Translations under genes and position numbers: made by a program | Shown: in pieces, positions 1 through 39,947 of the stretch | How positions within the stretch are numbered: position 1 is the stretch's first letter | How the letters are laid out: each line of letters starts with the position of its first letter | Assembly: GCA_017502125.1 (NCBI GenBank) | Contig: JAFVVN010000010.1 | Span: 1 to 55,986 of the forward strand | From: Bacteroidales bacterium | GTDB taxonomy: Bacteria; Bacteroidota; Bacteroidia; Bacteroidales; UBA932 | Reading direction: 5' to 3' | DNA length: 55,986 bases | The notes under the pieces: model-generated | Databases searched by the model: none | What the model was told of the DNA's origin: nothing | What the model saw: only the letters and a program-made list of their open reading frames with translations

Positions 1-1820
1 ATTCCGTCTGCTGTGCCACATAATTCCGAGTGCAGGATTGCTCTACGATAGTAGAATTTGCGGAAGGCGGTTGAATCCATACCATTATCCAAAGCTTTCT
101 TGATAAGATGAGCCATATCGTCAAGACTATCCTTCAGTTTCTCTGTATCACCTTGCATTTCATAGGCTCTTGCCAACAGATACATTGCTCCGAAATGCTC
201 GGGGTTGAAAACAAGAAAATTCTCAAGCAACCTTTGTGCATCAAGGCTATGACCAGAGTATAAGTATCTGACAGCATTCAGAAACACTGCTTCTCTATTG
301 TCGTTTGATACAACTGGCCATGACACATGTCTCATCAGGCAGTCATCATCAGCCATATTCTGCAGAGCTCTGGAAACAAGGTCATAAGCATAGCTGATGT
401 CATTTGCTTTTACTGCTTTCTCCGCAATCTGGCATAATGTGGTGGCAAGTGCATCATAATCCTTCGTGGCTTCATGTTGGCTGATAGCCTCACCTATCTC
501 CAACTCGGTTGAAATGATTTTTTCATCATTGTATTCTTTTGCAAATGTGAGTATGTCTTTTGAAACCATGACGGAGTTCTGGTTGATATGCTGCATCAGT
601 TCAATTCCAGCAAAAGATCTCGCACGGCTCAAAGCCACATAAGTCTGTCCATAGGTAAATGCTCCTTTGCCAAAATTGATGGCAACCTTGTCAAAAGTCA
701 AAGACTGGCTTTTGTGGATTGTAATTGCCCATGCAAGTCGTAATGGATATTGTGTCATTTTGCCGATGACTTTCTTCTCAACCACCTTTGCAGCTTCATT
801 ATATTGGTACTCAAATGCCTCCCAGACTTCTGTCTCAACTTCACTCTCCATACCATTTTCCAGTCTTACCTTTATTAAGTCCTTACCAAGTTCTGACACT
901 ACGCCAATGGTACCATTAACGCAACCGTTTTTCTTGATATTTCGGATAAACATAACCTGTGCTCCTACTTTCAGAACAAGTTCTTCCTCGGCAGCATCCT
1001 TGCACTTGGAACAATCACCGGAGTACGTGGCCGTATATGTAAATGAGGGGGCATCAATCTCGGCCAATCTATTGTCATTTATAAGCGCTGCATCATCTCT
1101 TCTTGTTGTAAGGGTTATACGAAAACTGTCATCTATGCCGACAAGGTCCTCATCAACAACACGAGTATTAAGTTTGGCAATATCAGATTGTTGAACAGCC
1201 CCAACACGGAAGCGGTCCAGGAGTTCGATAAATGCTGGATCATTCTGACGATATACATTTGTAAACTCAATCTTTGGCAGTTTCACGTTACTGAGCACAT
1301 TAGAGTCGTAGAAATAGTACCCGGTTGACTTGTAGAACTTACGCAAGAGGGCCTTGTCTGCCATGTTTATAACAGGAGGCAACTGAAACAGATCACCCAC
1401 AAACACGACCTGAACGCCACCAAAAGGATGCGGATCATTTCTATGACGACGTAACATTCTATCCATGACATCGACCATATCACATCTTACCATTGATACC
1501 TCATCAATGATTATCGTATCAATTCTATTAAGAAGTTCTATGCGATCTTTATCTATGTTCCCATAGTTGTTAGGACCCTGAACACCAAAAGACAAGCCGA
1601 AAAAAGAGTGAATAGTCTGACCTCCGACATTCATTGCAGCAACTCCTGTCGGAGCCAGCACAACGAACCGCTTCTTGACTTCCTCGCAAATACGACGGAG
1701 AAATGTACTTTTACCAGTACCAGCCTTACCCGTCAAGAAGAAACTGTTGTTGGTATTAGCAATCATCCTGTAAGCATTCTGCTGCTCAAGATTTCCAGCA
1801 CATTCATCAAAAAAGCTCAT
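1..1820 (-). CDS. Pif1/RecD-like DNA helicase with C-terminal TPR-like region (partial, 3' end outside window)
   Basis: Superfamily 1B ATP-dependent helicase, read on the minus strand from an ATG at 1818-1820; the frame stays open to the left edge, so the C-terminus is missing. About 606 residues are visible. Walker A (GKAGTGKST) is at residues 31-39, an APTGVAA motif at 56-62 and Walker B (IIIDEVSM) at 103-110. A GDLFQLPP motif follows, then late helicase motifs WAITIHKSQS and YVALSRAR, typical of the Pif1/RecD2 group. After these the protein continues into a helical stretch resembling TPR or Sel1-like repeats (phrases such as NPEHFGAMYLLARAYEMQG). It may act in replication, recombination or mobile-element biology. 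A TACCTTTG -7 box lies just upstream. The surrounding DNA is AT-rich, which suggests an accessory gene. Family assignment is secure; the biological role is not. Confidence 0.92.
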   Translation of the reverse strand, partial: MSFFDECAGNLEQQNAYRMIANTNNSFFLTGKAGTGKSTFLRRICEEVKKRFVVLAPTGVAAMNVGGQTIHSFFGLSFGVQGPNNYGNIDKDRIELLNRIDTIIIDEVSMVRCDMVDVMDRMLRRHRNDPHPFGGVQVVFVGDLFQLPPVINMADKALLRKFYKSTGYYFYDSNVLSNVKLPKIEFTNVYRQNDPAFIELLDRFRVGAVQQSDIAKLNTRVVDEDLVGIDDSFRITLTTRRDDAALINDNRLAEIDAPSFTYTATYSGDCSKCKDAAEEELVLKVGAQVMFIRNIKKNGCVNGTIGVVSELGKDLIKVRLENGMESEVETEVWEAFEYQYNEAAKVVEKKVIGKMTQYPLRLAWAITIHKSQSLTFDKVAINFGKGAFTYGQTYVALSRARSFAGIELMQHINQNSVMVSKDILTFAKEYNDEKIISTELEIGEAISQHEATKDYDALATTLCQIAEKAVKANDISYAYDLVSRALQNMADDDCLMRHVSWPVVSNDNREAVFLNAVRYLYSGHSLDAQRLLENFLVFNPEHFGAMYLLARAYEMQGDTEKLKDSLDDMAHLIKKALDNGMDSTAFRKFYYRRAILHSELCGTADG

Positions 1821-26082: not shown

Positions 26083-27366
26083 ATGGAACTTAAGAAAACA
26101 GAATATCATCTTAAGAATGTGGCCGACGGTCACGAATTTGAGGACGAGGGATGGTCTCTTGCAGATCCCTCCGCGAGCTCCCCTTCCCTCGTGCGCGCAG
26201 TCTATTCCAACAGGAAATTCACCCCGCGTGAAGACCTTGACGGAATCTACCGTTACGCGGACTGGATGCCTGTCAGGAGGACTTTGAAGAACTCCTGCGC
26301 TCCCGTGACCTACAAGTCAAAAGGCCTCGCTTCCTTCCTCGGTCTGGAGAATCTGTACATCACTTTCTCAGGATGGAATCCAAGGATAGGTGCAAGAATG
26401 CGTACCGGTTCCTTCAAGGAGACGGAAGCCTACAGCGTGCTGGCAAGGCTGGACAGTGATGAAAGACGCATCCTCGTCGTGCAGTCGGCAGGCAATACCG
26501 CCCGTGCCTTCGCACAGGTCTGCTCGGACAACCGCATCCCCGTGGTGATATGCGTACCACAGGACAACCTTCACGACCTGTGGTTCCGCAAGCCGCTGCA
26601 CAAATGCGTCAAGCTCGTTGCAGCACCGCACGGCTGTGACTACTATGACGCGATAGCTCTAGGAGAAAAGCTGGCCACAGATCCTCTTTTCCTTCTCGAA
26701 GGAGGAGCTAAGAACGTGGCGCGCAGGGATGGAATGGGAACTACCATTCTGAGCTGTGTGGAAAAGATGGGACGCATTCCTGATGCATATTTCCAGGCTG
26801 TGGGCTCAGGTACAGGAGCCATAGCCGCATGGGAGAATGCATGCCGTCTGGAAGAAGACGGACGGTTCGGGGAGAACAGGATGCGTGTCTATGTCGCACA
26901 GAATTCACCGTTCACCCTGATGTACGACGCATGGAAGGCAGGAAACCGCACACTTCCGGAAATGACTCCGGAGGAAGGCAGGAACAGGTCCGAAAGAATC
27001 CTTGCCACCGTGCTGTCCAACAGAAAACCTCCATACGGCATATCAGGAGGTCTCTACGATGTGCTCAAGGCCAGCAACGGAGATTTCTTCACCGCCACCA
27101 ACAACGACATATATCACTGGCTCCTCCAGTTCCGAAACCGTGAAGGCTACGACCTTCTCCCGGCATCATGCGTGGCGGTCGCAGCCCTGGCCCAGGCAGT
27201 CAGAGAGGGAGTGGTGAAGAAGGATGAATATATAATGCTTAACTGCACCGGAGGAGGCACCCTGGGCGCGATGTCAAGGGGGGCTGTCCATAAGGAGCCC
27301 GACCTTGTGCTCTCACCAGACCTTCCGGCCGAAGATGTGGTGAAGGCAGTGAAAGGACTGTTCTAA
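26083..27366 (+). CDS. Cysteate synthase (threonine synthase paralogue)
   Basis: 427-residue fold-type II PLP enzyme. The cofactor lysine is K112 in RTGSFKETEA, and the phosphate-binding glycine run is near residues 245-250 (AVGSGTGAIAAWE). N-terminal residues resemble threonine-synthase-like proteins, but the TGSFKE context and the LPASCVAVAAL and NCTGGG segments fit cysteate synthases, which turn O-phosphoserine and sulfite into L-cysteate. The product would feed the acyltransferase two genes upstream. The 3' end overlaps the convergent marR gene by 4 bp. Threonine synthase itself is the alternative; location in a lipid operon makes it less likely. Confidence 0.82.
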   Translation: MELKKTEYHLKNVADGHEFEDEGWSLADPSASSPSLVRAVYSNRKFTPREDLDGIYRYADWMPVRRTLKNSCAPVTYKSKGLASFLGLENLYITFSGWNPRIGARMRTGSFKETEAYSVLARLDSDERRILVVQSAGNTARAFAQVCSDNRIPVVICVPQDNLHDLWFRKPLHKCVKLVAAPHGCDYYDAIALGEKLATDPLFLLEGGAKNVARRDGMGTTILSCVEKMGRIPDAYFQAVGSGTGAIAAWENACRLEEDGRFGENRMRVYVAQNSPFTLMYDAWKAGNRTLPEMTPEEGRNRSERILATVLSNRKPPYGISGGLYDVLKASNGDFFTATNNDIYHWLLQFRNREGYDLLPASCVAVAALAQAVREGVVKKDEYIMLNCTGGGTLGAMSRGAVHKEPDLVLSPDLPAEDVVKAVKGLF

Positions 27367-27800
27367 AGCTTTGTGGCCGTCATATTGTTGCTGAGCTTAC
27401 GAAGAGTGGCGAGAAAGGAACGGAGTTCATCTTCGCTGATGCCGTCGAGCATCCTGTCCAGGATCATGATTCCCTTGCGCTTTGCATCAAGCTTGAGATT
27501 CTCCGCCTTTTCCGTAAGCACGAGAGTGTTCGAACGGCGGTCCTGAGGGTTGCGTCTTCTTTCCACAAAGCCCTTGCGCTCTATGGCATCCACAAGCTGG
27601 GTCACTGAATTCTTGTCCTTCTGCATCAGGTCGGCAAGCTGCTGCTGGGTCATTTCCCCCTGATTCCACAGAAGGTCGATGAGCATGAACTGCTCGGGGG
27701 TGAGAGGAACATCCATCGTTCTGAGCATCACAGCAATATATTGCCTGAGACGACATCCGGTGAGATGGAGTTCCACGGTTATCTCCTTGGATAGTAACAT
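27363..27800 (-). CDS. MarR-family transcriptional regulator
   Basis: 145 residues with the winged helix of the family (EMTQQQLADLMQKDKNSVTQLVDAIERKG, quoted in part: QQLADLMQKD, recognition helix near NSVTQLVDAI; wing RRRNPQDRRSN at about 90-100). It converges on cysteate synthase and is divergent from the YeiH-like transporter across 48 bp. MarR proteins usually repress themselves and a divergent neighbour in response to a small molecule or oxidant. Sulfite or a sulfonate is an attractive inducer given the neighbours, but this is inference. No clear palindrome operator was visible in the 48-bp gap. Confidence 0.9.
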   Translation of the reverse strand: MLLSKEITVELHLTGCRLRQYIAVMLRTMDVPLTPEQFMLIDLLWNQGEMTQQQLADLMQKDKNSVTQLVDAIERKGFVERRRNPQDRRSNTLVLTEKAENLKLDAKRKGIMILDRMLDGISEDELRSFLATLRKLSNNMTATKL

Positions 27801-30972: not shown

Positions 30973-32244
30973 ATGAAAAGATCTATCATAGACTTTATCC
31001 GATGGTCAGGGGAGATAGGAGTTCTTGCCTACAGACATCCGAAGGCCAACATCAGCAAATATGCCAAGCTTCAGGTCAATGAGGCACAGGAGGCTGTCAT
31101 CATAGTGAACGGCACGAAATCGCAGAAGTTCGGTCCCGGTCAGTACGACATGGATTCGCCTAACCTGCCTATCCTCAGAGCCTTCTACGGCATCCCGTTC
31201 GGAGGGGAAAATCCATGGACCGTGCAGGCGTGGTTCGTCAACAAGCTCACACCCAAGGATGTGGACTGGGGCATCAGCGGCTTCCCTATCTTCGACCAGA
31301 CATTCCAGGCGCAGATTCCGATAGCCGCACAGGGAAAATACGGAATCACCGTTTCCGATCCTGAGAAGTTCATCATGAAGCTGGCAATGGGCTATCCTGG
31401 GGACTCCGAAGGAGGGGTCAACGTGACTGCCGACGACTTCACCGAGCAGCTCCGGGGAGAACTGACTTCCAAGACCAAGAGCCTTGTGACAAGGATATTC
31501 GCAACCAACAATTACGGAATCAATCAGATTTCCGCTCATCTGACCGACATCTCCGAGATGCTCGAGCGCGAACTCAACCCGTTCTTCAACGAGTTCGGAT
31601 GCAGCCTTTCCAAGTTCTATGTCACTTCCATCGACGTGGACACATCCACAGAGGCCGGCAGAGTGGCTCAGGAGGCCATCAACCAGCAGACTGCCCAGAA
31701 GATTTCCGGCCACACATGGCAGCAGAGCAAGATGTTCGAGACAGCCCAGCAGGCCGTGGGCGGCCAGGGCGGCGGCATCATGGGTGCGGTGATGATGGCA
31801 GGAATGTTCGGTGGTATGGGCGGAGGAGCCAACATGGCTTCCATGATGAACCCGCAGTACGACCAGCCGGCACCGGCTCCCCACGCAGGACAGCCGCAGG
31901 GACAGCCTGGCGGCCAGCCGATGATCAAGGACGTATACTGCTCAAGATGCAGCAAGCGCTTCAGGTCGGACAACAGGTTCTGTCCGCACTGCGGCAACCA
32001 GTACAATCCGTGTCCGAAATGCGGAGCGGACAACGACACGAGCGCTACAAGATGCGTGACCTGCGGCAGTCCGCTGGCATCGGGCAACATCAACCTATGC
32101 CCTAACTGCCACACCAGCCTGACTCCGGGTGCTGCGTTCTGCCCTTCATGCGGACGTCCGGTGTCGGAGCAGAAATGCCCAAGATGCGGAGCACCATCCG
32201 GCGGAGCAGCCTTCTGTTCAAAATGTGGAATGAAAATAAACTGA
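30973..32244 (+). CDS. SPFH-domain protein with C-terminal zinc-ribbon array (YdjI / virion-core-like)
   Basis: 423 residues from the ATG at 30973 (MKRSIIDFIRWSG); a longer frame through the promoter region is rejected. Residues 1-260 form an SPFH/band-7 domain of the YdjI type without an N-terminal membrane helix (EAQEAVIIVNGTKSQKFGPG; then LERELNPFFNEFG and FYVTSIDVD). A glycine/methionine-rich linker (about 270-320, MMAGMFGGMGGGANMASMM) leads to eight CxxC pairs, enough for four zinc ribbons (CSRC, CPHC, CPKC, CVTC, CPNC, CPSC, CPRC, CSKC). SPFH proteins assemble into large membrane-bound scaffolds. It heads a block of co-directional genes of unknown function. In Bacillus a similar protein (YdjI) sits with PspA-like and membrane proteins, so a membrane-integrity role is plausible. 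Confidence 0.88.
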   Translation: MKRSIIDFIRWSGEIGVLAYRHPKANISKYAKLQVNEAQEAVIIVNGTKSQKFGPGQYDMDSPNLPILRAFYGIPFGGENPWTVQAWFVNKLTPKDVDWGISGFPIFDQTFQAQIPIAAQGKYGITVSDPEKFIMKLAMGYPGDSEGGVNVTADDFTEQLRGELTSKTKSLVTRIFATNNYGINQISAHLTDISEMLERELNPFFNEFGCSLSKFYVTSIDVDTSTEAGRVAQEAINQQTAQKISGHTWQQSKMFETAQQAVGGQGGGIMGAVMMAGMFGGMGGGANMASMMNPQYDQPAPAPHAGQPQGQPGGQPMIKDVYCSRCSKRFRSDNRFCPHCGNQYNPCPKCGADNDTSATRCVTCGSPLASGNINLCPNCHTSLTPGAAFCPSCGRPVSEQKCPRCGAPSGGAAFCSKCGMKIN

Positions 32245-32250
32245 TGAGTC

Positions 32251-32946
32251 ATGAAGAATATAAATAAAGCCCTCTGCCTGTTCTTCCTTCTGGGAGGAGT
32301 GGCCCTCATAGTTGCAATATTCCTCCTTTTCCTCAAGGAAGTACTGGAGCCCGACATGCTGTACCTCAATATGGTCTCATGCTGCGTGGCCTACGCCATA
32401 ACCTTTGTCAGCGCAGCCGATATAATCGGGTCGGTCAAGCGTGTGAGCAAGGCTGCCCCGGGATATGGACTCAGATGGACTGCAGAATGGATATACCTCC
32501 CTGCAGTCATCGTGACGGTGGTCCTTTCCATCATCCTGAAACTGGGCTTCAACCTTTGTCTCATCCTGCAGATCAGCTATCTTTTCGTATTCCTGATGAT
32601 GACGGTGCTCAGCGTGGCACTCTCCCACAACGTAAACAGCTTCGAAGCGAAGGAGGAGGTCCGCAAGTCAGGACTTAAGGATATACAGACAAGGATAGCG
32701 ATGGTCGAGGCACAGTGCGCCATCAATGCCGGTGCGCTGTCTCCGAAGGTGGCTCAGATCAAGGAGGAGATCCGCTATGTGACCGCCTCGGACTCCCCTG
32801 CCGCTGCCGCACTTGAAGAGAAACTGATCGGGCAGCTGGCCCTTCTCGAAGTGAAGCTCTCGGAGCCCGTCATAGCTCAGGAATCTGTGGCTCAGGAACT
32901 TGAGACATGCCTGAAACTTATAGAACTTAGGAAGAAACAGTATTAA
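32251..32946 (+). CDS. Four-segment membrane protein with cytoplasmic coiled coil
   Basis: 231 residues. Hydrophobic segments are at about 7-28, 37-60, 80-100 and 102-126 (for example LVAL-type runs ending LMMTVLSVALSH). They are followed by an approximately 100-residue helical, heptad-rich cytoplasmic tail (SGLKDIQTRIAMVEAQ, AALEEKLIGQLALLEVKL, ELETCLKLIELRKK). It lies 6 bp after the SPFH gene and 10 bp before the large coiled-coil gene, so it is almost certainly in the same transcript. Family not recognised. It may be the membrane anchor of the SPFH assembly, which is inference from context. Confidence 0.75.
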   Translation: MKNINKALCLFFLLGGVALIVAIFLLFLKEVLEPDMLYLNMVSCCVAYAITFVSAADIIGSVKRVSKAAPGYGLRWTAEWIYLPAVIVTVVLSIILKLGFNLCLILQISYLFVFLMMTVLSVALSHNVNSFEAKEEVRKSGLKDIQTRIAMVEAQCAINAGALSPKVAQIKEEIRYVTASDSPAAAALEEKLIGQLALLEVKLSEPVIAQESVAQELETCLKLIELRKKQY

Positions 32947-32956
32947 AGACATCGAT

Positions 32957-35233
32957 ATGGAAGGTAAGATTTTCAGCGAATCCGCTAACATCTATCAGGA
33001 CCAGGCCAAGGTCTTGTATGAGTATTACAAGGCTGCGGCCGAGAAGATCGTCAGCGAAGAGAAGGTTCTTGAAGCCAAGATCAAGGATGCACAGTACCAG
33101 GTGACCAAGATGGACGCCGACCTGGGCAAGGCAAGCAGCGCAAAGACCGCCGGGATAGTGCTTCTGACTATAGGCATCCTGGCAGCGGCCGCGGGCCTCA
33201 TATTACCTGCTGCACTCAACCCTGAGACAGTTTCAGGACAGTTAATGGTTCTGTGCAAGGGAGCCCTCCTCGTCGGTGGCGCAATGGCTGTCATAGGACT
33301 CATCCTGCTTCTGACCCAGGGCTCGAAGGTGAAGAAGTTCCAGACCATGCTCAGCGAGAAGAAGGCTGAGATCGCAAGATACAAGGAGGCTCACAAGAAT
33401 ATATTCAGGGACTACAAGGTGACCAAGATGGGAGTTGCCTATGTGCCTGTGGCAAAGAGGATTGCATATAACGGAAAGAGCTTTGTCGTGGACCAGAGCG
33501 GCATCGCCAAGGAGGAGAAGTTCACCCTCCAGGTGATCAGGGAGAACGAACTGATCAACGAGGCGGTGACAGACCTCCAGGAACTCACCAAGTCAGCCCC
33601 TATAGTCGAGAACTCGAAGGAGCCGGAGAGCATCAGCACGGGAGAGATGTCCACATCCATCCAGAATGTCCGTTTCAACGACTACTTCGGCAAGATGGAC
33701 AGGACTCTGAGGACCATTTCCTACAGTCTCGGAAACGTGGAGGAGTCCAGCGTGGAACTTCCTGTCGTGTTCCCTGACACCCCATATGCAGACTTCCTGA
33801 AGGAGCACTCCACATCTGACGTTTCAGGTTCCCCTGTGTTCAACGTGTTCGACACCACAAGATATGAGGGTGCCATCGATAAGTTCAACCTTCTGAACGA
33901 GACCAGGCGCGCGCTCTCAAGCCAGTCTGAGCAGGTGGACCAGGTTCTGAAGACCCTGATGGTGGATATGGCGGAAGCCGTGCAGTCCACAGCAGCAAGG
34001 AAGATCGCTTCGGCCGGATCCCTTGTGGACTACTCGAACCGCATCCTCTTCAACATCCTGAAGGCTCCTTACAACTTCTATTCACCAGTCCTTGAAGCAG
34101 AGGAGATAGAAAGGATCAGGAACGAGAAGTTCGACTACGAGTCCATGGACTATAACTACAAGCCGTTCAACCTCAGGGAGAGCTCCAAGGTGAAGCTTGA
34201 CCTCAGGTCCATGAGCTGGGTGGCAGAGGACGGAAGCAGGACCACCGTTCCTTTCGGAATGAGCCAGATCCAGTCTGAGATCATCGCACCTATCGTGTCA
34301 AACCTTCTCAAGGACACGAGAAAGGAAAGAATGGAGATATATAACCACATCAAGGACCAGAAGATGAGCTACCTCAACAAGTGGCATCAGGACACCGAGG
34401 ACTTCTACGGACGCAACAGGGCAGAGGCTGCGGACATCATCAACCTGATGCGGAGCACACTTTCCGAGTACAGCGCGGCATACAACACCTTGAGTGCATA
34501 CAAGAAGACAGAAAGCAGCATGGCAATGTCCGGCTCGCTCGAGTCAGCTGTCACCGAAACCACAGACAACACCGCCGAGGTGCTTGCAGGATATCAGGCC
34601 CAGTCCCAGCAGGTCATGCAGACCCAGCAGGAGTTCACTGAATATATGGAAAGACTGCATGAGGACATAGATGTCCGTGCCGAGAAATTCGGATATGTGG
34701 AGTATTTCGACGCTTCTCTCCGCGACAAGAAGTCCAAGGAGGCGGCTGTCGCAGCCCAGAATGTAAGTCACCTTGAGGACAGGCGCAAGCCTCTTGCCGA
34801 GGTGAACCCGCTTCTTGCACAGAATTCCGATCTTCCACCGGTTCCGGATGTGGATGCGTTGGCTTACGAATATGCAGGAATGAACCTCAACGCAATGGCT
34901 CAGGAGGCTCTTGAGGAGCTTGAGGAGGCAGCCAAGGAACCTGTGGTGACCGATGAGGAGATTGTGGACCAGGTCATGCAGGACATTCTGGTCGATGAAG
35001 AGGCTGCAGAGGCCGTTGAGGAGTTTGTGAAAGCGGCAATGGAGGAAGATGAGGAAATGAGCGAGGAAGAGGAGGCTGATGAAGAAGCGGCCGATGAGGA
35101 GTATGAGGAAGATGACTGCGAGGGGGAGGATGATGAGTATGACGAAGACGAGGAATATGAAGAGGAGGACGGAGAATATGAGGAAGAGGAAGTGATCGAG
35201 TACGAAGAAGAAGATAACGAAGAGGAGAAATAG
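32957..35233 (+). CDS. Large coiled-coil membrane protein with acidic C-terminal tail
   Basis: 758 residues. A short N-terminal helix (residues 1-60, YEYYKAAAEKIVSEEKVL) is followed by a hairpin of two membrane segments (about 64-84 and 93-115), a helical region (KVKKFQTMLSEKKAEIARYK), a long helical cytoplasmic body (about 250-640) and a tail of about 70 residues made almost only of Glu, Asp and Tyr (about 690-758). No enzymatic motif is visible. The acidic tail could bind cations, basic proteins or the zinc-ribbon partners. It ends 2 bp before the next gene. Unknown family; probably a structural component of the operon's complex. Confidence 0.8.
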   Translation: MEGKIFSESANIYQDQAKVLYEYYKAAAEKIVSEEKVLEAKIKDAQYQVTKMDADLGKASSAKTAGIVLLTIGILAAAAGLILPAALNPETVSGQLMVLCKGALLVGGAMAVIGLILLLTQGSKVKKFQTMLSEKKAEIARYKEAHKNIFRDYKVTKMGVAYVPVAKRIAYNGKSFVVDQSGIAKEEKFTLQVIRENELINEAVTDLQELTKSAPIVENSKEPESISTGEMSTSIQNVRFNDYFGKMDRTLRTISYSLGNVEESSVELPVVFPDTPYADFLKEHSTSDVSGSPVFNVFDTTRYEGAIDKFNLLNETRRALSSQSEQVDQVLKTLMVDMAEAVQSTAARKIASAGSLVDYSNRILFNILKAPYNFYSPVLEAEEIERIRNEKFDYESMDYNYKPFNLRESSKVKLDLRSMSWVAEDGSRTTVPFGMSQIQSEIIAPIVSNLLKDTRKERMEIYNHIKDQKMSYLNKWHQDTEDFYGRNRAEAADIINLMRSTLSEYSAAYNTLSAYKKTESSMAMSGSLESAVTETTDNTAEVLAGYQAQSQQVMQTQQEFTEYMERLHEDIDVRAEKFGYVEYFDASLRDKKSKEAAVAAQNVSHLEDRRKPLAEVNPLLAQNSDLPPVPDVDALAYEYAGMNLNAMAQEALEELEEAAKEPVVTDEEIVDQVMQDILVDEEAAEAVEEFVKAAMEEDEEMSEEEEADEEAADEEYEEDDCEGEDDEYDEDEEYEEEDGEYEEEEVIEYEEEDNEEEK

Positions 35234-35235
35234 CT

Positions 35236-36165
35236 ATGGCAGATTTCAGATTCAACGTGAATACCCGCCCGATGGCCAACCAGCTCAGTTCCGTTTCAAA
35301 CAACGTGAACAAGGTCTCGGGAGCGGTCGTGGCGATGCAGGCAGCTGTGATCGCCGCGGAAAAGGACAGTGCCGACCGCATATGCCAGAACGTGAACAAG
35401 GGTTTCTATGCCATGATGCAGTCCCAGATCTCACAGAAGATCGCCCAGTTCACCAGCGTGGTGGAGTCCAAGCTTCTGGAGCTCGCTCAGTATGCCGCTG
35501 CACTGCAGAACATCCAGACCAGGATGCAGTCCGACTACAACATGATCTCAGCCAGATATACCAAGCTGTTCCAGTCCATCAACAACTCTCTGGAAGCAAG
35601 GGTGGCAGAGCTCGATATGCCTGTGTTCAAACTCGTGGACACGGACATGAAGGTTCTGGAGGGAAGGCCGCAGATGAGCTCGGCGAAGTTCACCGTCAAC
35701 CAGCTGGAGTCTGTCATGTTCTCCCAGCTCCTGGCCACGTCAAAGATGAAGGCAGATGCAGGAAAGGCCATTGCGGCCATGACACGATATATAGGTGATG
35801 CCGCCCAGGAGCAGAGGAAGTCAGGACGCTCGATGGAGGACATCGCTGTGGATTCTGCAGAGGACATATTCATTCCTGTTTCCATTATCGAATCCGCTTC
35901 GCCTGAAGGAGAGGCTTCTGTGACCTGTTATGTGGCAAGAAGCGGGAACGAGGAAATCGACAGCGACATTGACAGGTCTGTGCGCGAGCAGTCCCACAAT
36001 TCCGTCCTGCAAGGCAAGTGGGGAGAGATGGACGGGAAAGATATGGCGAAGATCGAGGCAGAATTCGTGAACATGCTCGTGAACTCTCAGGTGGAGGAAA
36101 GGGTGAAGGAGGAGATCATCAAGATGTTCAACCGCACCCAGAATGTTCAACAACTGAATCCATGA
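35236..36165 (+). CDS. Helical protein, paralogue of the next gene (309 aa)
   Basis: 309 residues, soluble, mostly helical. The central region (VVAMQAAVIAAEKDSADRIC, then DYNMISARYTKLFQSINNSL and VAELDMPVF) aligns by eye with the following gene (VIATEAAQVESKKASSKRIA, DYQMISKRYSKIFEDLDRET, IEQLDRPAF), so the two are an ancient duplication. No catalytic residues or signal peptide. It lies 2 bp after the coiled-coil gene. A heteromeric scaffold of the two paralogues is possible. Family not recognised. Confidence 0.75.
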   Translation: MADFRFNVNTRPMANQLSSVSNNVNKVSGAVVAMQAAVIAAEKDSADRICQNVNKGFYAMMQSQISQKIAQFTSVVESKLLELAQYAAALQNIQTRMQSDYNMISARYTKLFQSINNSLEARVAELDMPVFKLVDTDMKVLEGRPQMSSAKFTVNQLESVMFSQLLATSKMKADAGKAIAAMTRYIGDAAQEQRKSGRSMEDIAVDSAEDIFIPVSIIESASPEGEASVTCYVARSGNEEIDSDIDRSVREQSHNSVLQGKWGEMDGKDMAKIEAEFVNMLVNSQVEERVKEEIIKMFNRTQNVQQLNP

Positions 36166-36169
36166 TGCC

Positions 36170-37186
36170 ATGAGTTACACAGAATACCATTCAGCCAGTC
36201 TGCACTACTCCGGTTCGGTGTCATATCCGGCCAGTGAGAACGGAGGATCTGTTTCATACTCTGGAACCATCCCTGTGAACATCACTGTCTATGTCGACAC
36301 CGATGAGTTCGACCGGAGCGTCAGACACTGCAACACCTCCCTCAACGGGCTCACTGCAGCAGTGATCGCCACCGAGGCCGCACAGGTGGAGTCGAAGAAG
36401 GCATCGTCAAAAAGAATAGCCGACACCATAATAAAGGGCTTCTTCAATTATGTGGGTGCAGATCTCGCACAGAAGATAAAGGAACTTGCAGCAAAATGCG
36501 AGGCCACCTTCCTGGAACTCATGGACCAGAAGAGGACCTGCATGGAAAAGACCACCCAGATGCGGAATGACTACCAGATGATTTCGAAGAGATATTCCAA
36601 GATCTTCGAGGATCTGGACAGGGAGACAATTTCCAGGATAGAGCAGCTGGACAGACCTGCCTTCCAGTTCGCGGAAACGGCTCAGGCCGTGGCGGACAGG
36701 AACTGCAATTCGGACCTGCTCGGCCTGGCCACCGTCTCTGCCAACGAGAACCTTCAGCTCGAAGCCGTTCTCTCGTGCTCTCACGTCAAGATGCAGGCAA
36801 GGAATCTGATTTCAACCGCAAACGAATACCTCAAGGGCACATACAGGCTCGCCAATTCCGTCAGCAATATGCTCACCGAGGAATCCGAAGGTCATGACAT
36901 CCACCTTCCTGTCATATATTTCGAATCCGTGAACTCCGACAATCAGACCGTTTCCTCCATATATCGTCAGGAAAGCGGTTTCGCTCCGTCCGGAGACTCC
37001 GTGGATTCACATCTGCGCGCGAGGTTCATGTCCGACGGAATAATTTGGGAAGACATGCCTGCAGAGCTCAGGGAGCGCACAATGTCATATTTCAATTCTC
37101 TCCTTCAGGCCGGTCAGCAGGATGAAAGGGTCCTCGGCACCATAAGGGAACTGATGGAAAGAGACAATATACAAACCATTAAATAA
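36170..37186 (+). CDS. Helical protein, paralogue of the previous gene (338 aa)
   Basis: 338 residues. The first 35 residues are rich in Ser, Tyr and Gly (YHSASLHYSGSVSYPA), absent from its paralogue. A beta strand (VNITVYVDTDEF) then leads to the shared helical core (residues about 60-180). The C-terminal half is also helical. It follows the paralogue by 4 bp and precedes the bactofilin-like gene by 7 bp. Retention of both copies side by side suggests non-redundant subunits of one complex. No function can be assigned. Confidence 0.75.
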   Translation: MSYTEYHSASLHYSGSVSYPASENGGSVSYSGTIPVNITVYVDTDEFDRSVRHCNTSLNGLTAAVIATEAAQVESKKASSKRIADTIIKGFFNYVGADLAQKIKELAAKCEATFLELMDQKRTCMEKTTQMRNDYQMISKRYSKIFEDLDRETISRIEQLDRPAFQFAETAQAVADRNCNSDLLGLATVSANENLQLEAVLSCSHVKMQARNLISTANEYLKGTYRLANSVSNMLTEESEGHDIHLPVIYFESVNSDNQTVSSIYRQESGFAPSGDSVDSHLRARFMSDGIIWEDMPAELRERTMSYFNSLLQAGQQDERVLGTIRELMERDNIQTIK

Positions 37187-37193
37187 GACTGAA

Positions 37194-38171
37194 ATGAAAG
37201 AACTTAAAGATATAAGCTTTGACAGGGACAACATCATCCTCAATGGTCATCTGGTGAAGGGTGCCATCCTTCCCAAGAATGTCGGCGAGCTGGACCGTGA
37301 TGTGAAGATCCAGCAGGACACCGTGATCGAAGGTGCGGTGTATGGTCACAGGATCGAGGTTGAGAACGGTGATGCAGTGATAAAGGGTGCTGCATTTGCA
37401 CAGCAGGAGATATATATAAACAGCGGAGCCAAGGGAGTCGTGAAGTTCGAAAAGAGCATAGGAGCTGTCGACACTGTGGTTTCGCACGCAAGAGAGTGCA
37501 AGGTGATGATGCTCTCGGACATCAATGCCAGGGAGGTGCGCCTGACCAACGCCTTCGTGGGAGGAAGCATATTTGCCGATGAGATCACTCTTGTGAACTG
37601 CGTTGTGGTGGGCGGTGCATTTGCCAACAAGGCACTCGAGCTGAAGAGCTGCATAGTGGGCACCTTCAATGCTCCGTCAGTGACTATGGAAGGCGATAAC
37701 GGTCTGCTCCTTCCAAGTGCATTCTCGCTGGAGCCTGTCAAGTATAATCCGGCTGTCACCACTCTGTCCAACTATGCCCTTGCCGACCTCGGCGCACTTT
37801 ACAGGGGAACAGAGCCGACAGAGAATACCGGAAAGATCAGGATGAGCCTGGACAGCGACGAGGTCAAGAGTACACTGACTGACGAGGGACGCCAGGTGTC
37901 TGTGAGGAACTACACCGTGATCGGAAAGGTTCTGGCCACTGACCTGATCCACTGGGACAAGATGCAGAATCATTTCCTTCTCACCGCAGCAAGCCTCAAC
38001 ACCCAGCTCCTGAGCACCTACGACCTCGGTGTGGATGCTACAGGAAAGAATGCAGAGCTCACTCCGGAGAGGATATACGACTTCTTCATGGACCTCATGC
38101 TTGGCAAGATCCAGGTGAACGAGATAGACGGTTCATTCTCCATTGATTCATTGTCGGACAATTTAAAGTAG
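37194..38171 (+). CDS. Bactofilin-like beta-helix protein
   Basis: 325 residues. The first 170 residues contain short, regularly spaced beta-strand repeats that resemble the bactofilin/polymer-forming cytoskeletal fold: VIEGAVYGHRIEVENGDAVI, GAAFAQQEIYI, GGSIFADEITLVNCVVVGGA and KSCIVGTFNAPSVTM. The C-terminal half is a mixed domain (LTPERIYDFFMDLMLGKIQV). Bactofilins polymerise into filaments attached to the membrane. Standard bactofilins are shorter (100-200 aa), so this is at best a divergent relative. Six bp separate it from the zinc-ribbon gene. Its presence with an SPFH protein suggests a polymer-scaffold system. Confidence 0.72.
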   Translation: MKELKDISFDRDNIILNGHLVKGAILPKNVGELDRDVKIQQDTVIEGAVYGHRIEVENGDAVIKGAAFAQQEIYINSGAKGVVKFEKSIGAVDTVVSHARECKVMMLSDINAREVRLTNAFVGGSIFADEITLVNCVVVGGAFANKALELKSCIVGTFNAPSVTMEGDNGLLLPSAFSLEPVKYNPAVTTLSNYALADLGALYRGTEPTENTGKIRMSLDSDEVKSTLTDEGRQVSVRNYTVIGKVLATDLIHWDKMQNHFLLTAASLNTQLLSTYDLGVDATGKNAELTPERIYDFFMDLMLGKIQVNEIDGSFSIDSLSDNLK

Positions 38172-38177
38172 GATATC

Positions 38178-39023
38178 ATGATAATCAAGTGTCCAAAATG
38201 CGGCAATCTCGTGACTGACAGGGTGGCTGAATGTCCTTCATGCGGCGAGATTCTGAATGCAGAGCTTAAGGCGGCGGAAATCAAGGCAGCTGAGGAGGCG
38301 GCTCGGGCGGTGGAAGAGGCGGCGGCACGAGAGGCGGCGGCACGAGAGGCTGCGGTTCAGGTGGCTGCTCAGGAAGCTGTTCAGGAATCTGCTCAGGAAT
38401 CTGCTCAGGAAACTGTTCAGGATGTGGCGCAGGAAACTGTGCAGGATGTGGCGGAGCAGGAAACTGTTCAGGAAGCACAGGTGGCTGCACAGGAAGCACA
38501 GGTGGCTGCACAGGTAGTGGAAGTGGCTCAGGAAGCTGAAGCTTCTGCTGAGACTAAGGAAGTTGTGGAGACAGTCGCAGAGACATCTCCTGCCGAGATT
38601 CCTGAGGCTAAACCGAAAGAGACACCAGCGGAGTCTGTTTCTGCTGCTCAGACAGTTCCTGCAGCTCAGCCGACTCCTCCGGTTCAATCTGCTCCTGCAG
38701 CTCAGCCGGTTCCTCCGGTTCAATCTGCTCCTGCAGCTCAGTCAGCTCCAGTTGCTCAGACCGTTCCCGCTGCTCCCCAGCCAGCACAGGCTGAACCTCA
38801 AAAGAAAAAGAAATCATGGAAGGGACTCATCTGGGGTTCGGTTGCAGTCCTTGCTCTTGCAGGAATCCTCTGCCTGTATACCATGGCCATAACCAGAATG
38901 GGACTGGACACCATCAAGATAGAAGTACACTTCTACACCAAGCCTCTGGAAACCGTGGCTGACACAACAGCTCAGACAGTTGTGGCCGACACCACGGTAA
39001 CCCCTACACCAGCCGCAAAGTGA
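38178..39023 (+). CDS. Zinc-ribbon, low-complexity, single-span membrane protein
   Basis: 281 residues. An N-terminal zinc ribbon (CPKCGNLVTDRVAECPSCG) is followed by about 110 residues of Ala/Glu/Gln/Val repeats, probably a long helix (QEAVQESAQESAQETVQDVA). A Pro/Ala/Gln-rich stretch with a 36-bp direct duplication (SAPAAQPVPPVQ twice, about 38670-38750) comes next, then a basic stop (KKKKSWK), one membrane segment (about 212-233, LIWGSVAVLALAGILCLYTMA) and a short Thr/Ala-rich outside tail. The ribbon resembles those of the SPFH gene product, so the two may dock. The repetitive DNA gives long false frames on the other strand. Confidence 0.82.
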   Translation: MIIKCPKCGNLVTDRVAECPSCGEILNAELKAAEIKAAEEAARAVEEAAAREAAAREAAVQVAAQEAVQESAQESAQETVQDVAQETVQDVAEQETVQEAQVAAQEAQVAAQVVEVAQEAEASAETKEVVETVAETSPAEIPEAKPKETPAESVSAAQTVPAAQPTPPVQSAPAAQPVPPVQSAPAAQSAPVAQTVPAAPQPAQAEPQKKKKSWKGLIWGSVAVLALAGILCLYTMAITRMGLDTIKIEVHFYTKPLETVADTTAQTVVADTTVTPTPAAK

Positions 39024-39379
39024 AGATTCTGCTCACAATACTCGGCCTGATCTCTCTCGGCTTGGGAATCGTGGGAATGTTCCTGCCTGTACTCCCTACA
39101 ACGCCGCTGCTTCTTCTGGCAGCGGCGCTGTTTCTACGTAGCAACGACAGACTATATGACTGGCTCATGAACCATCCACGCCTCGGACCATACATCTCCA
39201 ACTTCCTGAAACACAAGGCCATTCCCCTGAAGGTCAAGATCATCTCCATCAGCATGCTCTGGCTGACTCTGCTCTACTGCGCCATCTTCGTAGCCGGGCA
39301 CTGGGCCCTCCGTCTCCTCTTCCTGGCCATCGCCACAGGAGTCACCATCCACATCCTCTCCTACAAAACCCTGAAATAA
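39020..39379 (+). CDS. DUF454/YbaN-family membrane protein
   Basis: 119 residues starting with GTG inside the previous gene's stop (GTGA overlap). DUF454 hallmarks are present: an N-terminal membrane segment with GLGIVGMFLPVLPTTPLLLLA, the ALFLRSNDRLYDWLMNHP motif, then two further hydrophobic segments. The family is widespread, inner-membrane and of unknown function. Translational coupling ties it to the SPFH block, but DUF454 genes occur in many contexts, so functional membership is uncertain. Confidence 0.88.
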   Translation: MKILLTILGLISLGLGIVGMFLPVLPTTPLLLLAAALFLRSNDRLYDWLMNHPRLGPYISNFLKHKAIPLKVKIISISMLWLTLLYCAIFVAGHWALRLLFLAIATGVTIHILSYKTLK

Positions 39380-39403
39380 CCCCTCTCCCATCCAGACCCC
39401 GGA

Positions 39404-39806
39404 CCGACAGGCAGAGTTTCGCCCGTTTCAGTGCCTGACGGTACCCAAAACACAGGCATATGCATGGTTTGGGAGACCGACAGGCAGAGTTTTGGCCGAT
39501 TTAGTGCCTGACGGTGCCCAAAACATGGGAATATGCATGGTTTGAGAGACCGACAGGCAGAGTTTCGCCCGTTTCAGTGCCTGACGGTGCACAAAACAAG
39601 GGAATATGTATGGTTTGAGAGATCGACAGGCAGAGTTTCGCCCGTTTCAGTGCCTATCGGTGCCCAAAACATGGGAATATGTATGGTTTGGGAGACAGAC
39701 AGGCAGAGTTTTACCCATTTCAGTGCCTGTCGGTACCCAAAACAAGGGAATATGTATGGTTTGAGAGACCGACAGGCAGAGTTTTGGCCGTTTCAGTGCC
39801 TGTCGG
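39404..39806. repeat. Tandem array of six 38-bp palindromes at a 73-bp period
   Basis: Copies start at 39404, 39477, 39550, 39623, 39696 and 39769. Each has a left arm CCGACAGGCA (some copies with one or two changes) and a right arm TGCCTGACGG or TGCCTGTCGG around an 18-bp centre (GAGTTTYGCCCGTTTCAG type). Between palindromes lie 35-bp linkers that are also conserved (ACCCAAAACA, then ATATGTATGGTTTG). Because linkers are conserved this is a tandem repeat of palindromic elements, not a CRISPR. Long open frames across it are artefacts of the 73-bp period. It fills most of the 568-bp gap between the DUF454 gene and btuG. Related copies lie at 55117-55227. Confidence 0.95.
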
Positions 39807-39947
39807 TCCGGGATGAAGAGGCCATATTTGCGACACTAAAAAAGGATTTGCCTGAACTGAATGAAGCAAGCAAATATTGATGGACTTACAGACTGACCTG
39901 CTTGATGAAAATATCAAACAATAGATTCATAGTGCAAGGGCTGGAGG
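39807..39947. other. Intergenic tail after the palindrome array
   Basis: A short open stretch reading RDEEAIFATLKKDLPELNEASKY then stop (about 39811-39880) looks protein-like but has no start of its own; it may be a gene remnant or chance. The rest shows nothing recognisable. Confidence 0.3.

Follow-up and report, generated by a model that had tools for sequence, protein, structure and literature searches.

The window considered here is a stretch of 55,986 nucleotides from a Bacteroidales bacterium (GenBank assembly GCA_017502125.1, contig JAFVVN010000010.1); it is contig 31 of its genome, and that genome is 78% complete. Between positions 30973 and 39379 it holds eight genes, numbered 1 to 8 below, which the original prediction took for one operon-like, membrane-linked set. 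Our comparison with relatives upholds this for genes 1 to 6, which are co-inherited and linked to the membrane, but not for the whole row: gene 8 falls outside the unit, and gene 7 belongs to it in the clade of the window. On this comparative evidence we regard genes 1 to 6 (plus gene 7 in that clade), and not genes 1 to 8, as one unit inherited as a block. As to its role, we propose, with a probability of about 0.45, that the unit is a horizontally mobile, non-enzymatic scaffold on the cytoplasmic face of the inner membrane, which would protect or repair the envelope.

The relatives come from a profile search with gene 3, the signature gene, in a collection that holds one genome for each of 84,980 species (an exact-word search). 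It gave at least 125 encoding loci, of which we analysed the best 80, some near-duplicates included (L053 and L055, for example; L labels stand for loci or stretches and G labels for genomes). Taxon names of the relatives are those of the submitters, and contamination of metagenome-assembled genomes (MAGs) is possible. In 70 of the 80 loci gene 3 is followed by genes 4, 5 and 6 in the same orientation, and the remaining 10 contigs break off within 1.5 kb of it; genes 3 to 6 are thus together in all 80 relatives unless the contig ends. The association of the genes goes beyond chance, since their order is kept in these relatives and the distances of all 15 gene pairs correlate with each other (r 0.85-0.95, Mantel p 0.001, in the 42 cassettes, the window's included, in which all six genes could be aligned). 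Five genomes of the order that show the conserved block are probably among the 80 loci and are not independent of them.

Genes 1 and 2 stand before gene 3 in 70 of the 80 loci as well. In five of the other ten the contig starts within 3 kb, and in five the pair is absent, which means that the SPFH gene and its four-span companion lie ahead of gene 3 in 70 of the 75 loci with sufficient upstream sequence; at these loci gene 1 is always accompanied by gene 2. Four genomes of the five pair-less loci were searched, and no SPFH protein of the gene 1 type was found in them, only zinc-ribbon pieces in two, with gaps in the MAGs as a possible cause. The view of the SPFH protein as a core part has to be given up: given the absence of the pair from 5 of the 75 loci, we take genes 3 to 6 to be the core, and the SPFH and four-span proteins to be a nearly constant layer added to it.

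The composition of the row was predicted largely correctly. All eight genes are packed in one direction, with gaps of 6, 10, 2, 4, 7 and 6 bp and an overlap of 4 bp between genes 7 and 8 (Table 1). Pfam and hydropathy agree with the parts that had been named, that is, an SPFH protein with zinc ribbons, a four-span protein, a large membrane protein with an acidic tail, a single-span zinc-ribbon protein and DUF454. Gene 1 matches PF13421 (Band_7_1) with E 2.8e-27 (96.2 bits against a cut-off of 24) and zinc ribbons besides, while the ribbon of gene 7 falls slightly short (25.1 bits against 27). Hydropathy gives four, two and one transmembrane segments for genes 2, 3 and 7 and none for genes 1, 4, 5 and 6. 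Aspartate and glutamate make up 65% of the last 80 residues of gene 3. The helical pair of genes 4 and 5 is indeed paralogous (BLASTP 7e-27; profile-profile probability 100%). Genes 2 to 6 match no Pfam family above cut-off, no enzyme domain was found above the Pfam cut-offs in genes 1 to 6, and none of the eight proteins reaches any NCBIfam cut-off.

Table 1. Genes of the row in the window (all coordinates are window positions)
Gene	Position	Strand	Length (aa)	Features
1	30973..32244	+	423	SPFH (Band_7_1), four C-terminal zinc ribbons, no transmembrane segment predicted
2	32251..32946	+	231	four transmembrane segments; without known family
3 (signature gene)	32957..35233	+	758	transmembrane hairpin within a long helical hairpin, central helices, acidic tail
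4	35236..36165	+	309	132-residue helix (model), then alpha/beta C-terminus; paralogue of gene 5
5	36170..37186	+	338	paralogue of gene 4 with an additional N-terminal segment
6	37194..38171	+	325	strongly conserved; weak bactofilin likeness
7	38178..39023	+		accessory; N-terminal zinc ribbon, low-complexity linker, one transmembrane segment near residue 214, short tail
8	39020..39379	+		DUF454 membrane protein (PF04304, E 1.4e-38)

The core genes match no known family above cut-off, and the set can do without its SPFH layer. For these reasons we regard it as new in kind; if the SPFH layer were given more weight, it would be a variant of the SPFH operons. No description of this set, as a named complex or otherwise, is found in the titles and abstract beginnings of the literature matches listed, a source that does not cover bioRxiv and most subscription journals.

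Gene 7 is, on the following evidence, best regarded as a clade-specific seventh member. In 7 of 61 loci the first downstream position is taken by a gene that encodes an N-terminal zinc ribbon, whereas none of the 247 positions beyond it has one (Fisher 9e-6); upstream, such genes hold 2 of 71 first positions, and three lie further out, all of them in L027. Six of the seven loci, together with the window, form exactly one split of the gene 3 tree (SH-aLRT 100), a quick tree for which the tool warned of long branches meeting at this very split. The clade comprises the window, three MAGs of Bacteroidales type, one Ignavibacteria and two Acidobacteria, and the zinc-ribbon gene is in the slot in all six members other than the window. 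The seventh locus, L021, stands outside the clade and has a gap of 177 bp. In a second clade, of six rows, a protein with a GYF_2 domain and a transmembrane segment follows 3-12 bp after the cassette in L061, L070, L076 and L077. Pfam confirms GYF_2 in all four; one adds a YARHG domain and one an FGE-sulfatase domain (L077, 15022-16134, directly after the cassette). Of the other two rows, L087 carries a gene of similar appearance after a gap of 183 bp, while the contig of L090 ends soon after the cassette. The slot proteins of the two clades share an adaptor domain at the N-terminus, which is either a zinc ribbon or GYF_2, along with a transmembrane segment and variable C-terminal parts. Three tandem genes downstream of the cassette in L025 (15247-18954) cluster by BLASTP with GYF_2-type genes of other loci.

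Gene 8 is probably a passenger. BLASTP found no relative of its DUF454 protein among the open reading frames of the 80 relatives' loci, and we rejected a unit of eight genes, DUF454 not being found beside the relatives' cassettes. Directly 3' of this gene there is a 73-bp tandem repeat of 5.6 copies (window positions 39402-39807).

The unit is sparse and, on the sequence evidence, shows horizontal transfer. With the window's own genome counted each time, gene 3 occurs in 6 of 198 genomes of the order (genes 4 and 5 in the same six), in 3 of 101 genomes of the genus, in two lineages, and in 1 of 395 genomes of the phylum, where one weak chance match was found besides. A supposed distant variant in G216 was discarded, as no open reading frame in the 18-kb stretch of that genome matches any of the six profiles at E<=1. 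The set was described as one of Bacteroidales, yet it is not confined to that order, being also present in contigs titled Flavobacteriaceae or Flavobacteriales, Chitinophaga, Ignavibacteria and Acidobacteria. A further contig, L088, is titled Clostridiales yet placed among Muribaculaceae in the tree.

The two congeners are of different types: G643 has the seven-gene type, with a gene 3 that is 71% identical to that of the window, and G660 the six-gene type, with 47% identity. No flanking protein of the G643 stretch matches the flanks of the window. G660, which represents the other cassette lineage, and the window share one protein (75% identical) some 3.2-3.4 kb upstream of the cassette (window 27363-27800; L209 16361-16804), and for this reason an insertion hotspot is possible at this site. 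The shared protein is presumably MarR-like. Recent transfer is clearest between L022 (Bacteroidetes GWF2_33_38) and L030 (a Lutibacter MAG), which are 89% identical in DNA across the six genes together with 285 bp before and 42 bp after them, with no match at E<=1e-20 beyond that stretch although both flanks are present. Since recent transfer marks the limits of the unit in this way, its parts list can be tested and need not be guessed. Carriage by plasmids or phages was considered and rejected, as the searches gave no match for gene 3 in plasmids or viral contigs, nor for gene 6 in phages.

In a sub-clade of the relatives the unit is carried in a manner that resembles an integron cassette. 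Six of the 80 loci have conserved modules at the ends of the cassette (end modules), one of them at the upstream end only. Our first idea was that these modules are inverted repeats of a transposon, and attC-like sites replaced it once the junctions had been folded. Eight junctions, picked by eye from 16 junction stretches, can be folded into long hairpins of the bottom strand (z -2.6 to -4.5), as against -0.6, +0.8 and -0.3 for three control stretches. Several upstream junctions (L022, L169, L171, L173, L030) have no long hairpin between their ends, and junctions in first position are read as attI-like. In an alignment of ten sites, two-sided changes occur in 16 of 18 predicted stem pairs; the terminal TAAC and CGT are invariant, and the next T is kept in nine. 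Rfam, tried on one junction, gave no match.

A covariance model built from these ten sites, which match it by construction, finds at least 23 sites in Bacteroidales bacterium CF (below, CF), at least 31 in G065, at least 65 in G012 and at least 26 in Labilibaculum filiforme; three other genomes have at least 3, at least 3 and at least 1. None is among the matches listed for the genome of the window, G028 and G109. Over the window and the 80 loci, strong sites are found in L022, L026 and L038 only, and L030, L041 and L060 have end modules with no attC-like site by this model. In CF, which is titled a complete genome, the sites (at least 23, all on the minus strand) extend over 55 kb, from 2251046 to 2305949, with 271-9410 bp between them (L202-L204, record 2251046-2307512). 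The array is headed by a tyrosine recombinase reading frame (2306646-2307512) and includes what we take to be genes of insertion-sequence type; the six-gene unit is a 7.7-kb cassette in it, between sites 2262838-2262991 and 2270701-2270810. A recombinase gene is also found in L. filiforme, its end 90 bp ahead of the upstream module. One genome, G065, has three copies of an attI-like sequence of 145-148 bp, 97-99% identical (L178 998-1142, L169 6310-6457, L022 7561-7708), which lie beside a recombinase and before two arrays. Arrays of this integron-like kind, some of their cassettes holding several genes, also occur in stretches L168-L177.

The likeness to integrons thus lies in a unit that stands beside or between structure-conserved attC-like hairpins and, in CF, in a one-strand array with a tyrosine recombinase. 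The differences are the size of a cassette with six genes and the nature of the recombinases. The CF and L. filiforme enzymes score 166.8 and 196.2 bits against TIGR02249 (IntI; cut-off 265), and 192.2 and 210.2 against their best model, NF040815 (tyrosine recombinase/integron integrase; cut-off 220), being below every NCBIfam cut-off listed, those of the IntI and XerA models included. In the region of the IntI insertion they have 33 and 16 residues against 74 and 58 unmatched model positions, and the extra domain of IntI is apparently lacking. TIGR02249 alone is unspecific, with sub-cut-off matches in 14 of 14 control genomes. In the passages of the IntegronFinder 2.0 paper (PMC9024848) that were consulted, Salinibacter ruber M1 is the only bearer of a complete integron named for Bacteroidetes itself.

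The company in which the unit travels bears on another explanation, namely that it is an anti-phage system, a scaffold that senses or blocks membrane events (entry, membrane replication, lysis) without a nuclease. We judge this doubtful, though it merits attention, for a sparse and horizontally mobile set would suit it, and so would part of the sibling cargo. The end modules recur in the carriers G065 and G012, with seven matches in each (one of those in G065 being its own cassette), and they also flank other genes. Among these are a DISARM-type set of DrmMII (E 1.7e-163), DrmE_C and a NERD-helicase, a IIG enzyme of MmeI type, an Mrr/ResIII helicase, and a set of 2CompART, helicase and DUF1848. 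The CF array contains a type IV restriction enzyme. However, of ten proteins picked from the CF stretch, 7 have no PADLOC match at 1e-5 and one matches as a helicase only; of the two others with matches, one lies beyond the last site. Other sibling cassettes are presumably efflux, arsenic and signalling or regulatory operons, to judge from their sequences. Since the sibling cargo is mixed, the manner of carriage suggests an adaptive accessory function and not defence alone. Beside attC-like sites in G012 there are also other small SPFH operons with zinc-ribbon proteins (L174 473-3250, L175 1021-2667), one of which includes a protein that we take to be TerB-like.

The genes around the cassettes give a similarly divided answer. 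The nearest flanks match 26 PADLOC families (11 names among the best 25 of the 26) and distant genes match 11 families (4 names), possibly a modest excess, although distinct proteins were not counted, the near set has more residues and several of its names are generic (GlgB, DEDDh, subtilase). Pfam assigns the nearest genes to a wide variety of families, most of which occur once or twice (among the best 25 of 115 families). The eight proteins themselves have no match beyond noise in PADLOC-DB 2023, the best being E 0.0059 (gene 8) and 0.022 (gene 6) over single short stretches. Kiwa and other membrane-sensing defence systems likewise consist of a multi-span membrane protein with one or more partners, but no match of the present proteins rises above noise for any system modelled in PADLOC.

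To return to the scaffold on the inner membrane, it could work as follows. Genes 2 and 3 would anchor the assembly at the membrane. Gene 1 may form an SPFH assembly that is recruited to these anchors, by analogy with Bacillus subtilis YdjI, an SPFH/zinc-finger protein which, according to PMC8581546, has no membrane anchor and needs YdjG and YdjH. Genes 4, 5 and 6 would make a coat or filament, and gene 7 or the GYF_2 protein might read the periplasmic side. The trigger may be chemical stress on the membrane, or a phage entering or leaving the cell. The original idea of a membrane-linked scaffold stands as regards a co-inherited, membrane-linked set with no enzyme domain recognised above cut-off in genes 1 to 6, and has to be widened beyond Bacteroidales.

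The same features could also belong to a scaffold for some specialised intracellular or membrane structure (a compartment, a contact site, a secretion platform) that has nothing to do with protection. The lack of a recognised enzyme would fit, as would two paralogues of long-helix type, a membrane-anchored coiled coil and receptors with variable C-terminal domains. We nevertheless think this improbable: there is no constant cargo or enzyme neighbour, the largest flank family having members at 8 of the 80 loci, and the SPFH pair is dispensable.

The least probable explanation, to which we give very little credit, is that the row is a phage-shock operon of the PspA/ydjFGHI type of Bacteroidota. 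A resemblance in outline only had been foreseen, and this is what we find. As in pspA-ydjGHI of B. subtilis, an SPFH protein without anchor and with C-terminal zinc ribbons adjoins membrane-protein genes, and both sets are probably scaffolds on the inner membrane. The Bacillus set, as given in PMC11237479, consists of band-7 with a zinc ribbon, TPM, a zinc ribbon with a YpeB-like part, and PspA. The defining genes fail here: Pfam finds no PspA, TPM (YdjH) or YpeB-like (YdjG) match in any of the eight proteins, and five other proteins without family stand in the row. In addition the SPFH protein is dispensable and the set is sparse and transferred, unlike that of Bacillus. PspA (PF04012) is present in 3 of 20 searched carrier genomes, that of the window excluded (G109 and G599 are probably one genome). 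Kinship of genes 3 and 4 with PspA/ESCRT-III was rejected at hhalign probabilities of 0.2% and 0.1%, respectively, against a PspA profile of three sequences, which is a weak test.

Gene 6 was predicted to be a bactofilin-like beta-helix protein, and here we cannot follow the prediction. There is a weak likeness: 40 of 58 members of the gene 6 family match PF04519 at E<=0.1 (best 1.1e-4), and the sole PDB profile match is bactofilin A (BacA, E 0.06). The gene of the window, however, reaches 11.3 bits (E 0.43) against a gathering score of 27.9, comparison with a profile of 13 real bactofilins gives an hhalign probability of 4%, and the periodicity of rungs is not significant (p 0.17), so kinship is not established. 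The genome of the window has a separate canonical bactofilin (G000:C28:118623-118910).

Predicted structures were made for genes 3 and 4. The model of gene 4 (pLDDT 79, pTM 0.32) has another long helix besides the one given in Table 1, and a small alpha/beta part at its end. That of gene 3 (pLDDT 69, pTM 0.40) has a helical hairpin at 12-147 that contains the transmembrane pair, then beta strands and helices at 304-368, 435-524 and 539-577, and a low-confidence acidic tail. In Foldseek searches with gene 3, VIPP1, IpaB and MakA appear solely at E>0.1, like other helical hairpins.

Several points weigh against our preferred scaffold. Both models are of moderate quality, and neither matches a solved fold at E<=0.001. 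For gene 6, neither the profile-profile comparison nor the periodicity supports the formation of a polymer. Most relatives are MAGs. For the genome of the window itself there is no attC-like site among the matches listed, and no end module. Finally, PspA was not found in 17 of the 20 searched carriers; the set must therefore differ from ydjFGHI, and its effector from that of Bacillus.

Taken as a whole, the most detailed form of our proposal is a tentative one, which we hold to be less likely than not: a scaffold machine of a new type, made of undescribed families, in which the SPFH layer is optional and the receptors that span the envelope can be exchanged, may protect cells against attacks on the envelope, those by phages included, and may have spread partly as a cassette of a non-IntI integron-like system of Bacteroidota, which would also move cassettes of DISARM-type, restriction and resistance-like genes. 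Several protein families without known function are here tied into one unit. If the scaffold reading is true, the unit would be a membrane-protection machine in which SPFH is optional and which is independent of PspA. The manner of carriage further suggests that some Bacteroidota possess large integron-like arrays with multi-gene cassettes, based on a recombinase that scores under the cut-offs of integron models.

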